From: Bacteriovorax sp. BAL6_X
GTDB lineage: Bacteria; Bdellovibrionota; Bacteriovoracia; Bacteriovoracales; Bacteriovoracaceae
Length of the DNA: 64,000 nt
Direction of reading: 5' to 3'
Assembly: GCF_000443995.1 (NCBI RefSeq)
Contig: NZ_AUMC01000010.1
Coordinates: 806,001 to 870,000, forward strand
The position numbers and the translations under genes were made by a program. Shown one piece after another: positions 6,309-39,790 of the stretch (position 1 is its first letter; each line of letters opens with the position of its first letter). The notes under the pieces were generated by a model. It searched no databases. It had not been told where the DNA came from and saw only the letters and a program-made list of their open reading frames with translations.

Positions 6309-7349
6309 TTGAGAAGTGTATATAAATTTGGTGGCAGCTCTATTAAAAGTGCTGCTGCCATTAAGCAGATTGCAGACTTAATCCTAGTATGTCCAAATGA
6401 TGCACTCGTTGTACTATCTGCGACCTATAATTCAACTAACGAACTAGAATCAATTTATTTTAATGAAAACCCCGCTTCATTAGTTGAAGCTTTTTTTCAA
6501 AAGCATAGAGTAATCGTTGACGAACTAGAGCTTTCCGTTGATCTCTCTAGCTTTAAAAAAGAATTAATAGGTTATCTTGCACTTCCCAAATCAAGTGCCA
6601 CACTTGACTCTATCTACAGTATAGGAGAAAGAATCTCTACCTCGATTCTTGCAAGCTATCTTGAACAACAGGGAAGAGAGATCTTTCATGCTGATGCTCG
6701 TGATTATATTGTCACAAATCGAAACTTTAACGAGGCCAAGGTTCTCTTTAAGAACACGAAGGCAAATTGCAAAGAGTTAAATAAGCATGCTCTAATCATT
6801 ACTCAAGGATTTGTTGCACGAACAACTGATGGCCAGACGTCAACTCTTGGCCGTGAAGGATCTGATTACTCTGCTGCAATCTTTGCTTGGGCACTAGATG
6901 ATGTACAAGAACTTGTGATTTGGAAGGATGTAAAAGGGGTTTATGGACATGACCCTAAGGTTCTCAGTAATGCTCCGCTCATTCATAACCTTAGTTATCG
7001 CCAAACAAAGCTCCTAACTAATAAAGGAGCGAAGATACTTTTTCACAGAACGATGAATCCTTTGATTGAAGCTAATCTTCCGCTTATCGTAAAGAGTGTA
7101 TTTTATCCAAACGAGGCAGGTAGCTGTATTAGTGATGCCAAGGAAGATCACTTCTGTGCAATTTCTACTGAAGTAGATGAAGCCTCTCGAAACTTTATCA
7201 CTGTTTTCGGGCTTGCTCTTGAAGAGGCCAGCTTACTCGATAAGACTTTCCTATTAGACGAGAATAATGACGATTACTTTACGCTAGAAGTTGATCGCCA
7301 AGATCTTCGTGAGTGGATAGACCTTTTTGGTGATCAGTTATTTTCTTAG
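6309..7349 (+). CDS. lysC: Aspartokinase-family amino acid kinase
   Basis: Aspartokinase phosphorylates aspartate, the first step to lysine, threonine, methionine and diaminopimelate. The 346-residue protein begins with KFGGSS (residues 6-11; usually KFGGTS). It has the nucleotide and substrate region LGREGSDYSAA and IWKDVKGVYGHDPK, then GAKILFHRTMNP, all in family order. The kinase domain ends near residue 275. The roughly 70 remaining residues are too short for the usual two ACT domains, so feedback control may be reduced or different. The start codon is TTG. The last 71 bases overlap the convergent pilus ATPase gene. A homoserine-pathway role is likely but not proven. Confidence 0.8.
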   Translation: MRSVYKFGGSSIKSAAAIKQIADLILVCPNDALVVLSATYNSTNELESIYFNENPASLVEAFFQKHRVIVDELELSVDLSSFKKELIGYLALPKSSATLDSIYSIGERISTSILASYLEQQGREIFHADARDYIVTNRNFNEAKVLFKNTKANCKELNKHALIITQGFVARTTDGQTSTLGREGSDYSAAIFAWALDDVQELVIWKDVKGVYGHDPKVLSNAPLIHNLSYRQTKLLTNKGAKILFHRTMNPLIEANLPLIVKSVFYPNEAGSCISDAKEDHFCAISTEVDEASRNFITVFGLALEEASLLDKTFLLDENNDDYFTLEVDRQDLREWIDLFGDQLFS

Positions 7350-8445
7350 TTAATAAATAAAGTGTCGAATAAATTGGACGATCTGCTTCACTTCCGTGAA
7401 CTTCGATAATCTCCTTTATTTCTTTATTTTCAATAAAAACAACATGATCAACACTTTGACAAATAAGCCTAAGAATTTGATCGAAGTCTATTCCATTCTT
7501 GCTTTCTGAGAAAATTGAAAACAACGTTGTTAATCTCAGGAGTGTATCCTTTGCACTATTGGCGTGAATTGTACTCATCATTCCTTTGTGTCCAGTATTC
7601 ATGGCGAGTAAGAATGGAATAACTTCACTCGATCTAATTTCACCTAGAATGATTCTCTTGGGAGACATCCTTAGGGCATAGCTACAATAATCCTTTAGAC
7701 TTTTTCCTTCGCTTGGGTGTGATAAGAGGTGGGTTGAGTGAGAGATATCACCATCTATTTCTGCAACATCTTCTATGATGACATGATGTTCGCCTTCTTG
7801 GCACAATGATTTGCAAACCCTTAGAAAACTTGTTTTACCACTGGCCGTGGAACCAGCAATGACAATATTCTTGTGGTCTTCAATAAGTTGATTCATTAGC
7901 TTTTGTGCATTTATATCTGTTGTGAAGTTTGAAATTTTAAAAACCTCTTTTGAGTGAACTCGCAGAAATGCTTTTGCTTGTGACTTAGGCGAAAGACATG
8001 GGTGTGTAAGGCTGACACGAAGATCAACTTCAGTGCCACCAATTACTCGTGTATTTTTAAATGATGCAAATGGTGAATTAAAGTTCCAGTCGACACTAAG
8101 CTTTTGTGTTAGAAACACAAGGCTTAGAACAAAATCTTCATTACTTAGAAATTCAACTTTAAGATTTAGATTATCTTGTTTGTGAACTTCGATATCACTA
8201 GGTGAGTGAATAATGAACTCATTTGCTTCATATAGTTTTATAAGGTCGTCAATATAACTTTGATGATAAACCTTATTAAACCAATCTTTAATCTCTTCTA
8301 AATTTGAAATGTCATTGTCTTGTAAATTATTTCTTTCTAATGTCTCTTGAATAATTTCCTCAAAATTTAAATGAATAGTCTTTTTCGACTTTTCTGTTAG
8401 AAGAGTTTTAAATTCATTGAAGAAGTAATGATTAATTTGTGACAT
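7279..8445 (-). CDS. tadA: Type II/IV secretion ATPase, CpaF/TadA family
   Basis: A cytoplasmic hexameric ATPase that powers assembly of a Tad/Flp-type pilus. The 388-residue protein has a divergent N-terminal domain and a C-terminal RecA-like domain. Walker A is GSTASGKTS (198-206), the Asp box follows (VIIEDVAEI), the atypical Walker B is RIILGEIR (264-271), and the His box region is MMSTIHANSAKDTLLRL. TEVDLRVSLTHP before the ATPase core matches the CpaF-type arginine region. It lies nine bases after the secretin gene, so the two form an operon. Its last 71 bases run into the convergent aspartokinase gene. The family is clear; the subtype rests partly on context. Confidence 0.85.
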   Translation of the reverse strand: MSQINHYFFNEFKTLLTEKSKKTIHLNFEEIIQETLERNNLQDNDISNLEEIKDWFNKVYHQSYIDDLIKLYEANEFIIHSPSDIEVHKQDNLNLKVEFLSNEDFVLSLVFLTQKLSVDWNFNSPFASFKNTRVIGGTEVDLRVSLTHPCLSPKSQAKAFLRVHSKEVFKISNFTTDINAQKLMNQLIEDHKNIVIAGSTASGKTSFLRVCKSLCQEGEHHVIIEDVAEIDGDISHSTHLLSHPSEGKSLKDYCSYALRMSPKRIILGEIRSSEVIPFLLAMNTGHKGMMSTIHANSAKDTLLRLTTLFSIFSESKNGIDFDQILRLICQSVDHVVFIENKEIKEIIEVHGSEADRPIYSTLYLLTKKITDHQKGLSTHEDLGDQLLA

Positions 8446-8454
8446 ATATCTTTC

Positions 8455-9789
8455 CTATTTTAATTTTGCGATAGCAATAATTCTTTTGTACGTTTTAAAT
8501 TTAGCAGATGATGAAAATAACTTTCCAAGAATGGGGATCTGACCAAAAATGGGAAGTCTTCTGCCGGTATTGTCATCAGTTGTTAAATCGATTTCAAACA
8601 TTTGGATAGGAATACCTTTTTCGATTAGAAAACTTGACTCTTGTGCACTCCCGTTTATATAGGTATCACCATTTGTCTGTCCCATCGGTCTCGTTAGCTT
8701 TGTGCTATATTTTACTTTGTATCTGTTATTTACTTTTTCAAGAAGCATCTCAATTTTTAGTCCAGCAAATCGCCATTGAGTATTATTGCCGTTGTTGTTT
8801 GTTGTAGTTGTAAAGGGGATATCGGAACCCATTTGTACTGTTGATTTGTTATTTGTACGTAAAAGGATTTTTTGAGTTGCTAGTGTCGATACATTATAAT
8901 CAGTATTTCTAAAAACAATACTCTGACTTTTGGCGAGTGCTGATGCCCCCTCATCGAGTAAGTCAGAAAGACCGACGTCGACTTGATCAAGACCAAAATT
9001 AATCTCTTTTCCATCCATTCTTTCAATTTGTATAATTCTCATTTCGAGTTTATGGTTGACCAGATTTTCAAACCTTTGAGAGAGAAAGAACTTAACCATA
9101 AGCTTACTTTGTAGTGGCGCTAAGAACTTCTTATCCTTTAAGATCTCTTCGTTAGTAAAGCAGTGGATATCAATTTTTGATTTTTCACAGCGAATATCAT
9201 CGTAGTAATTTTGAAAAAAACTGTGATGAATTTCGCTAATAATTTTCTTTGCGACTTTCTCTTTAAGTTCGCCCTTAAAGATAATACTTTTATTCTTATT
9301 GAGAAGTGGCCTAAGAACTAGGTACTGATCAAGTGTCGTTATATCTTGGGAGATGATTAGTTTATCGCCTTTAACTTCTCCATTAATACCAAAGTGACGT
9401 AAGTTGTTTAACACTTCAAGTACTTTAAATTGACCTGATTTTGAGAGGACATAAACTTCATGTATCTTCTTCTTGCCTGAACTGGTCCAAAGTGTAACAA
9501 TCGATTGGCCCTGCATTTTTCCTTTAATAAAGAGTTTGTTCTGAGCTTGAATTGCTTTGCTCGATAAAACTTCTTTATTGGAAATACTGAAGTTTGATAT
9601 CCCTGATAATGAAATTTCAGTAACTTGGCCAATGGCCAGAGTAATTTGATTTGAGCCAGTTGCGTAAATATTGAAATTTACGATACATATTAAGCTAATG
9701 ACTTTGACAAAAGGCAGGAAACTTAGTAAAAAGCTATACTCGAAAACTGTTTTTAATTTAGATTTAAATATATTGAGGAGATTTATCAT
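8455..9789 (-). CDS. cpaC: Outer-membrane secretin of a Tad-like pilus (CpaC/RcpA family)
   Basis: It probably forms the ring through which the pilus leaves the cell. The N-terminal region has the pilus-type N domain (about residues 45-110: ITLAIGQVTEISL, later LFIKGKMQGQSIVTLW). A middle domain of mixed strands follows, then a C-terminal secretin domain with VQMGSDIPF, the Gly/Asn-rich gate loop (TTTTNNNGNNT), and RRLPIFGQIPILGKLFSSS near the end, typical of secretins. The start is uncertain. The ATG at 9789 lacks a good ribosome site and would give a long N-region before the signal peptide core. That ATG overlaps the ATG of the divergent gene at 9788. The ATPase gene follows nine bases downstream. 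Confidence 0.82.
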   Translation of the reverse strand: MINLLNIFKSKLKTVFEYSFLLSFLPFVKVISLICIVNFNIYATGSNQITLAIGQVTEISLSGISNFSISNKEVLSSKAIQAQNKLFIKGKMQGQSIVTLWTSSGKKKIHEVYVLSKSGQFKVLEVLNNLRHFGINGEVKGDKLIISQDITTLDQYLVLRPLLNKNKSIIFKGELKEKVAKKIISEIHHSFFQNYYDDIRCEKSKIDIHCFTNEEILKDKKFLAPLQSKLMVKFFLSQRFENLVNHKLEMRIIQIERMDGKEINFGLDQVDVGLSDLLDEGASALAKSQSIVFRNTDYNVSTLATQKILLRTNNKSTVQMGSDIPFTTTTNNNGNNTQWRFAGLKIEMLLEKVNNRYKVKYSTKLTRPMGQTNGDTYINGSAQESSFLIEKGIPIQMFEIDLTTDDNTGRRLPIFGQIPILGKLFSSSAKFKTYKRIIAIAKLK

Positions 9790-37816: not shown

Positions 37817-39790
37817 TTATGCTAATGTAATTTGGATTTTCTTCATTCGGCCTTCACCGATTGAGACTGTTTTAACTTCTTTGTGCTTATCAAGATGTTG
37901 ATGAACAAGCCTACGATCAGAAGCATTTAGTGCTTTTAGTGTCACCGGCTCGCGAGAGTCTAGAACTTTTGCAGTCTCACGTTCTACCATTTTAATAAGA
38001 GAGTCTTCTTGGTTCTTAAGGCCCTTACACTTGAAATTTAGTCTAACTTCTCTAGGAACTTTAACACTGTTGTATAGGTGCAGCCTTGTTAGGTGCTCAA
38101 GCGCTTGAAGAAGTTCATTATTGTCTTTAGTTAACATTTTCTCATCTGCTCCCGAAAAGAAGACTTTAATATTCTTTCCATTGAACGAGAACTTGGCAAA
38201 TAGCTTCAAGCCTGTCTTTTTAATAAGAGCGATAATAAATGGCATCACGATCTTTTTATAAGTTGGTCGAAGACTATAAGTGAACTTAGTAAGCCTCTTG
38301 CCAAATAGGAAGTACTTCTTACGTCCCAGAGTCGATTCATCAAGGTTTAGTTGAGAATCATGCTTTATTTTAAAGAATGCAAGAGCGGCTTTTTTAGCAC
38401 TTTCTTGAGAATCTGTTTGAATCGTAAAGGTTGGTGTACTTGGTTTCTTTTCAATTTTTGCAACTGGTTTGCTTATCGATTTTTCAGTTACAGTATTTGT
38501 ATCTACTCTTTTTTGAGCTTTCTTCTTAGGTTTCCTCTGAGGTTTCTTACGCTTATCTTTTTCCTCTTGAGTTAGAGGCTTACCTGTCGCTCGATCGACT
38601 ACTTTAAAAGTTTTGCGATCAATGAATGGCTTCTTTGATAGTTGCTTTGAAATATCTTCTGGAGCAATTTCTAATTTTGGAATTTTATCACCAATAAATT
38701 CTTGGATTGGGTCTAAGTATTCACAGTCATCAAATGAACAAAAACTTATTGCTTCACCTTCTGAGCCTGCTCGCCCTGTTCGACCTATTCGGTGAACATA
38801 GTTAGCAGCATCTTGTGGAAGATCATAGTTGATAACAAGATTAACATCTTTAATATCGAGACCTCGTGCCGCAACATCCGTACAGACAAGGATTGTCGTC
38901 TCTTTAGATCTAAAATCTTTAATTAATTTGGTTCTCTTACTCTGAGAGAGGCCACCTGAGATTGCTTTCGCTTTGAAGTTCATTGCGATCAGCCATTCAG
39001 CAACTAAGTGCGTTTGAAATTTTGTATTACAGAAGACTAGAGCGTATGCATCTTCATGATTTCGGATGGTACTTACGAGAAGGCCCATTTTTTCGTTTGC
39101 ATTAATCATCGCTAGTTTATGATCGATATGATCAACAACCATATTATCTTCGTTCAACTTAAGTTCGATTGGGGTTGAATTGAACTTATAGGCCGTATTT
39201 AAAACTGCCATATTAGTCGTAGCTGAAACCATGATTAATTGTCTGTCATCTGGCATTTGGCCAAGAGTGTATTCGACATCTTTTTGGAAGCCCATATCAA
39301 ATAATCGGTCTGCTTCATCAAACACGATTCCATAAGTACGATCAATAAGGACGGCCTTTTGCTTAAGTAGATCTACTAAGCGCCCAGGAGTTGCAACAAT
39401 GATATGTGCGCCTTTACTTATTTGTTCTTTTTGCCTTTCGAGGCTTTCACCACCGATAACGCAAACTGTTTTTATTCCTGAGTCTTTACCAAGATCATTG
39501 AAGACCTTTTCTGTTTGTTGGGCCAACTCTCTTGTGGGAGATAGGACAACGTAGTGAACCTCATCAACTTTAACAAGATCATCATGGATGATATGCTCGA
39601 TGATTGGGATGGCAAATGACGCAGTCTTTCCAGATCCTGTTTCTGCTAGGGCAAGGATATCTTTACCTTCTAGAATTGGATCTATTGTTAGTTCTTGGAT
39701 GGCGCTTGCTGTTGTGAAACCACATTTTTCAATGGAATCAAGAAGTGCGGGGCTTAAATTAAAGTCTTTAAATGGTATATTATTTGTCAT
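37817..39790 (-). CDS. DEAD-box RNA helicase fused to a Jag/KhpB-like (Jag_N-KH-R3H) RNA-binding module
   Basis: A 657-residue protein. Residues 1-375 are a complete DEAD-box helicase: AETGSGKT (49-56), PTRELA, DEAD (158-161), SAT (189-191) and HRIGRTGRAG (333-342). A basic linker (KRKKPQRKPKKKAQKR) follows. The last 200 residues match KhpB/Jag: a Jag_N-like part with ESAKKAALAFF and KKYFLFGKR, a KH domain with FFSGADEKMLTKDNNELLQALEHL, and an R3H domain with RRLVH (RxxxH) and the final VKTVSIGEGRMKKIQI. The KH GxxG loop is replaced by KDNN. It probably remodels RNA. The ATG at 39790 is preferred over a TTG at 39799. Confidence 0.93.
   Translation of the reverse strand: MTNNIPFKDFNLSPALLDSIEKCGFTTASAIQELTIDPILEGKDILALAETGSGKTASFAIPIIEHIIHDDLVKVDEVHYVVLSPTRELAQQTEKVFNDLGKDSGIKTVCVIGGESLERQKEQISKGAHIIVATPGRLVDLLKQKAVLIDRTYGIVFDEADRLFDMGFQKDVEYTLGQMPDDRQLIMVSATTNMAVLNTAYKFNSTPIELKLNEDNMVVDHIDHKLAMINANEKMGLLVSTIRNHEDAYALVFCNTKFQTHLVAEWLIAMNFKAKAISGGLSQSKRTKLIKDFRSKETTILVCTDVAARGLDIKDVNLVINYDLPQDAANYVHRIGRTGRAGSEGEAISFCSFDDCEYLDPIQEFIGDKIPKLEIAPEDISKQLSKKPFIDRKTFKVVDRATGKPLTQEEKDKRKKPQRKPKKKAQKRVDTNTVTEKSISKPVAKIEKKPSTPTFTIQTDSQESAKKAALAFFKIKHDSQLNLDESTLGRKKYFLFGKRLTKFTYSLRPTYKKIVMPFIIALIKKTGLKLFAKFSFNGKNIKVFFSGADEKMLTKDNNELLQALEHLTRLHLYNSVKVPREVRLNFKCKGLKNQEDSLIKMVERETAKVLDSREPVTLKALNASDRRLVHQHLDKHKEVKTVSIGEGRMKKIQITLA

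Follow-up and report, generated by a model that had tools for sequence, protein, structure and literature searches.

KhpB (also Jag or EloR) is a widespread RNA-binding protein with few known working partners. In the window analysed here, a stretch of 64,000 nucleotides from Bacteriovorax sp. BAL6_X (contig NZ_AUMC01000010.1, positions 806,001 to 870,000), a single reading frame had been read as a DEAD-box RNA helicase ending in a KhpB-like module, which raises the question of whether the two are truly one protein and what such a protein might do. The frame occupies positions 37817-39790 on the minus strand, as do all features of the gene given below, with the ATG at 39790 and the stop codon at 37817-37819, and encodes 657 amino acids. 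Sequence profiles and structural models confirmed that it comprises a DEAD-box helicase, a basic disordered linker, and a complete Jag_N-KH-R3H (KhpB/Jag/EloR) module. It follows from the families of these parts that one polypeptide would couple RNA unwinding to RNA recognition.

The helicase core spans residues 1-384 (38639-39790). In agreement with the original prediction of a full core, motifs Q (24-32), I (AETGSGKT, 49-56), Ia (PTRELA, 85-90), Ib (TPGR, 134-137), II (DEAD, 158-161), III (SAT, 189-191), IV (251-256), V (305-312), and VI (HRIGRTGR, 333-340) were all intact and in order, and the Pfam models DEAD (residues 30-193, E 9.5e-46) and Helicase_C (234-342, E 7.3e-32) matched significantly. 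The motif residues were nearly all invariant across 22 fusion proteins. This motif set places the core among the DEAD-box (SF2) proteins, for which RNA-dependent ATPase and unwinding activities are predicted. The top-scoring curated models were those of CshA (NF053631, 362 bits) and DbpA (NF008744, 328 bits), both scores lying below the equivalog cut-offs of 646 and 524 bits, respectively. DbpA also has a C-terminal RNA-binding domain, which takes the core to its substrate by a similar logic, whereas the C-terminal domain of the fusion is not an RRM. The linker that follows (residues 385-453; 38432-38638) is basic, as had also been proposed, with 24 K/R against 8 D/E. Residues 401-451 were mostly below a pLDDT of 50 in the full-length AlphaFold2 model, in which the helicase and KhpB parts showed no confident mutual packing (pTM 0.48).

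The C-terminal module was assigned as a Jag_N domain (residues about 454-510; 38261-38431), a type II KH domain (residues about 511-588; 38027-38260), and an R3H domain (residues 598-655; 37826-37999). The Pfam R3H model was significant alone (E 1.4e-10), and the R3H signature RxxxH lies at Arg626-His630 (37901-37915), exactly where it had been placed, both residues being invariant in the family alignment. The NCBIfam Jag_EloR model (NF041568) matched residues 460-655 almost end to end (model positions 6-202 of 203, E 9.4e-16 to 7e-17) at 58-62 bits, short of its curated cut-off of 145 bits, which was reached by no match in 192 genomes of the phylum. Pfam Jag_N (PF14804) gave no match in the fusion sequence taken alone and was matched in 14 of 34 members of the family (best E 1.9e-6). 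When the C-termini of these 34 members were combined into a profile, only Jag proteins were retrieved from the PDB, led by 3gku (positions 2-207 of 208, E 4.3e-30), and the profile also matched Thermus thermophilus KhpB (E 4e-17).

The predicted fold led to the same assignment. AlphaFold2 modelled residues 454-657 with a mean pLDDT of 91, and a Foldseek search with this model placed 3gku (E 1e-14, 207 columns) and T. thermophilus KhpB at the top. All six matches with E < 0.001 were chains of 3gku, Thermus KhpB (one of them RNA-bound), or HP1451 (2pt7_G, E 2.5e-5). The N-terminus of 3gku accounted for the Jag_N domain in both profile and fold, and the KH domain was recovered in the Foldseek alignments to 3gku and 9lrg as well as in the NF041568 match. 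The TM-scores were only about 0.5, probably owing to differing domain orientation, and the assignment is carried by the E-values and coverage. The proposed Jag_N-KH-R3H C-terminus thus held in sequence profile, predicted fold, and conservation; neither an absence of Jag, KH, or R3H matches nor a structure unlike KhpB was found.

Compared with known KhpB/Jag/EloR proteins (solved as 3gku, 9lrg, and 9lri), the fusion has the same domain order, predicted fold, and RxxxH signature, and here too the KhpA gene stands next to rpsP. It differs in being attached to a helicase C-terminus, in lying away from the yidC-mnmE site, in the lack of a canonical GxxG loop, and in its sub-cut-off score. The eukaryotic proteins IGHMBP2 and YTHDC2 likewise carry a helicase and an R3H domain in one chain, but they belong to other helicase classes and have no Jag_N-KH module.

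The KH loop was examined across the family. In the BAL6_X protein KDNN stands in place of GxxG at residues 555-558 (38117-38128), exactly as predicted, and a canonical GxxG was found in none of the 34 family modules. Position 556 is Asn in 29 of 34 modules (Asp in the BAL6_X protein), and position 559 is Glu in 30. The loss of GxxG is not a product of the fusion, to judge from the alignments, because the first Gly of the loop is already absent in all 18 separate Jags of the sister families, in which the last Gly is kept (G..G in 0 of 18). Leu567 (38090-38092) corresponds by position to Leu239 of EloR, which contacts Ile61 of KhpA; KhpA is no longer bound when this Leu is replaced by Tyr (PMC6403258). 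Of the 34 family members, 33 have Leu, Ile, or Val at this position, where separate Jags often have Phe or Tyr. The KhpA of BAL6_X is a separate protein of about 80 amino acids encoded beside rpsP, with an intact GKQG loop and Ile at the dimer position. Because Leu567 matches EloR Leu239 and KhpA keeps its GKQG loop, we infer that the KH domain of the fusion has been kept for docking KhpA, not for an RNA grip of its own. The replacement of GxxG in the original prediction therefore stood, whereas its suggestion that RNA binding may rest on R3H and Jag_N is less well supported than KhpA docking; Jag_N has no known RNA-binding role (PMC6403258).

KhpA was found in 73 of 76 family genomes, including members without the fusion, and hence does not depend on it. 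In genera g14 and g24 (e.g. genomes G018 and G215), KhpA persists in the absence of any KhpB or R3H protein and must therefore function in its own right in these genera. In locus L074 (8393-9292), a gene close to khpA encodes a histone H1-like protein bearing an extended tail of AKKTAKKVAKK repeats.

Next, we asked whether BAL6_X has a separate khpB, as the original prediction had left to be checked. The genome is 99.98% complete and contains one R3H domain only; no second R3H and no second full Jag match was found in it. In the sister families jag sits between yidC and mnmE. At the corresponding site in locus L071, the mnmE frame begins at 7261, directly after the end of yidC at 7257, leaving no room for jag; the module resides instead in the fusion. 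Since the genome has a single R3H domain and yidC abuts mnmE, the fusion has, on sequence evidence, replaced the normal jag/KhpB gene and is the only KhpB of the cell. Separately, the second half of the mnmE frame of this locus (7261-8799) is interrupted by a low-complexity insert (GPIGPDTQSGSIEPVKKDLGPMGASHK...).

The spread of the fusion was surveyed in 77 genomes, each at least 90% complete, of Bacteriovoracaceae/Halobacteriovoraceae, a family of marine bacteria of the predatory type. The module was clearly present in 36 of them (E below 1e-60) and otherwise absent at E 1e-4, and a fused frame of 649-718 amino acids was found in 34. This single architecture spans more than 20 genera. Helicase and Jag also shared one reading frame in all 28 evaluable named loci, e.g. 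in Bacteriovorax sp. BSW11_IV and Halobacteriovorax marinus 36_234_T64. Every such locus bears the label of Bacteriovoracaceae, Halobacteriovoraceae, or a wider group including these; the scan that yielded the loci used a 13-row alignment subset and family-derived patterns, which independent fusions elsewhere could escape. Its sole match outside the family, the Acidobacteria contig L154, proved to be an ordinary Jag frame between yidC and mnmE. In genome G050, the apparently separate tail was rejected as a gene of its own, since it begins where one contig starts or ends and its helicase counterpart is cut off at the edge of a different contig. The neighbourhood gave no operon evidence: across 29 named loci, any one neighbouring gene recurred in 5 at most.

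In the tree of helicase cores, 33 fused proteins formed one clade (SH-aLRT 99), adjoined by a clade of Jag-less orthologs to which the phylum's other families contribute one helicase per genome. In the simplest history suggested by this tree, the parts fused a single time near the family's base and the fusion was then lost repeatedly. Sixteen family genomes without the fusion contained no R3H domain at all, and in 17 fusion-less genomes tested, the best DEAD-box match fell outside the ortholog clade; by these sequence searches, such members have lost helicase and KhpB both. The fusion is missing from roughly half of the family members and so is not essential there. The module was also seen without a detectable ortholog helicase in G034, G035, and G046, two of which are incomplete genomes; in G046 it stands alone. 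The helicase-less Jag_N-KH-R3H modules of three family genomes lie at L072 (2783-3541), L073 (2082-3086), and L032 (992-2007, split over two overlapping frames). The fusion can have been undone, or the helicase lost, in G034, G035, and G046, whose weakly supported placement in the Jag tree does not separate fission from retention.

Outside the family, the two parts were found as separate genes. Of 30 such genomes, 19 had both the helicase ortholog and Jag, 2 Jag only, 1 the helicase only, and 8 neither (Fisher p 6e-5, which overstates independence, since the genomes are related and the pattern follows deep branches). Because they are fused here and co-occur there, helicase and Jag probably share their RNA targets in the sister families. 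The separate Jags are homologous to the fused module in KH and R3H (hhalign probability 99.9) with GxxG already degenerate, but they lie as genes of their own between yidC and mnmE, lack Jag_N, and begin with a short motif, MxGFFxKLFGG, such as MAGFFSKLFGGG. The orthologous helicases (L096-L116), sister to the fused ones and 40-45% identical to them, have no Jag module; they carry long Arg/Gly-rich tails, most of which end in a basic amphipathic stretch (KVKGFFKKIFG or KVKSFFQKIFG). In loci L089-L105 (e.g. L090, 2022-3707, and L094, 2900-3511), the helicase end KVKSFFQKIFG resembles the Jag start MAGFFSKLFGG.

A fixed pattern recovered the amphipathic end in 14 of 19 orthologs; it matched 1 of the 32 other DEAD-box proteins and 17 of the 119 remaining frames from these loci, and shuffled tails gave a mean of 5.4 and a maximum of 12 over 2000 trials; the pattern was picked after the tails had been viewed, so this result is a lead only. 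The similarity of the two motifs points to possible common targeting to a membrane or partner. Around the orthologs, an alpha/beta hydrolase gene adjoins the helicase in L089-L091, L098-L100, L102, L104, L105, L107, and L115, and a divergent poly(A)-polymerase/CCA-type nucleotidyltransferase gene lies beside it at no fewer than 8 of the 19 loci; this gene order is absent at the fused gene of BAL6_X. The fusion joins the C-terminus of the helicase to the N-terminus of Jag, and neither amphipathic motif stands at the junction. A wider reading, which we consider rather unlikely, is that KhpA/KhpB normally works with a DEAD-box helicase: in other Bdellovibrionota matching tags (KVKGFFKKIFG and MxGFFxKLFGG) would bring the two together in one place, and the fusion, by joining those very ends, would have made the tags needless.

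For the fused protein itself, the reading that we favour, and judge somewhat probable, is a single-chain helicase, the product of one fusion close to the family's base, whose KhpB part would serve with docked KhpA as an RNA-anchoring adaptor. In this model the R3H domain would grip RNA, the third helix of the KH domain (Leu567) would dock KhpA, and KhpA would bring the GxxG loop missing from the fused KH domain; on its flexible tether, the ATP-driven core would then open nearby RNA structure (sRNA, UTR, tRNA-precursor, or rRNA). KhpB ligands in other bacteria include sRNAs, tRNAs or their precursors, and UTRs, with hints of RNA processing (PMC10117718). By analogy, these classes are candidate substrates of the fusion.

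It is also conceivable, if doubtful, that the Jag module is chiefly regulatory or protein-binding, restraining the helicase by autoinhibition or positioning it by docking to a partner at the envelope or the ribosome, and not an RNA anchor. Such a tail would fit the loss of GxxG in all members, a Jag_N without a known RNA role (PMC6403258), and the PDB entry that shows the Jag-fold protein HP1451 in complex with the ATPase HP0525 and whose title calls HP1451 an inhibitory protein; against it stand the invariance of Arg626 and His630, the long, basic, disordered linker, and the lack of confident packing in the full-length model. Improbable to the same degree is a merely historical join, in which deletion or translocation brought together two RNA proteins of overlapping expression whose parts remain independent, the tail keeping the older KhpB/EloR task of controlling cell elongation with KhpA and the helicase doing general RNA work. 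In streptococci, KhpB and KhpA do act together in elongation (PMC6403258); the linker varies and is flexible, and the module stands alone in three genomes (G046, G034, and G035); however, the same architecture has persisted over more than 20 genera, the ortholog and Jag co-occur as separate genes too, and both parts are gone in fusion-less family members, though loss of one gene accounts for the last point. An artefact of assembly or gene prediction, with two genes read through as one, has a negligible chance of being correct, as no support for it was found and, although many of the sequences come from metagenome bins, it is refuted by the unbroken 649-718 amino acid frames in dozens of independent assemblies, cultured isolates included.

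Our literature search found no KhpB-helicase fusion and no work on a Halobacteriovorax RNA helicase. The components are known, their combination was not found in the papers searched, and the fusion is real, conserved, and a replacement for jag. The KH domains without GxxG that retain the docking position would, from their sequences, set a KhpA-docking role apart from RNA binding. KhpB is among the commonest bacterial RNA-binding proteins, and its effect on the RNAs that it binds is an open question (PMC10117718). A conserved, jag-replacing fusion to an ATP-driven helicase suggests that both jobs belong together and points to the ortholog helicase as a candidate KhpB partner in sister bacteria, e.g. 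Bdellovibrio-type predators. It thereby offers a testable answer, namely that KhpA/KhpB may pick RNAs for remodelling.
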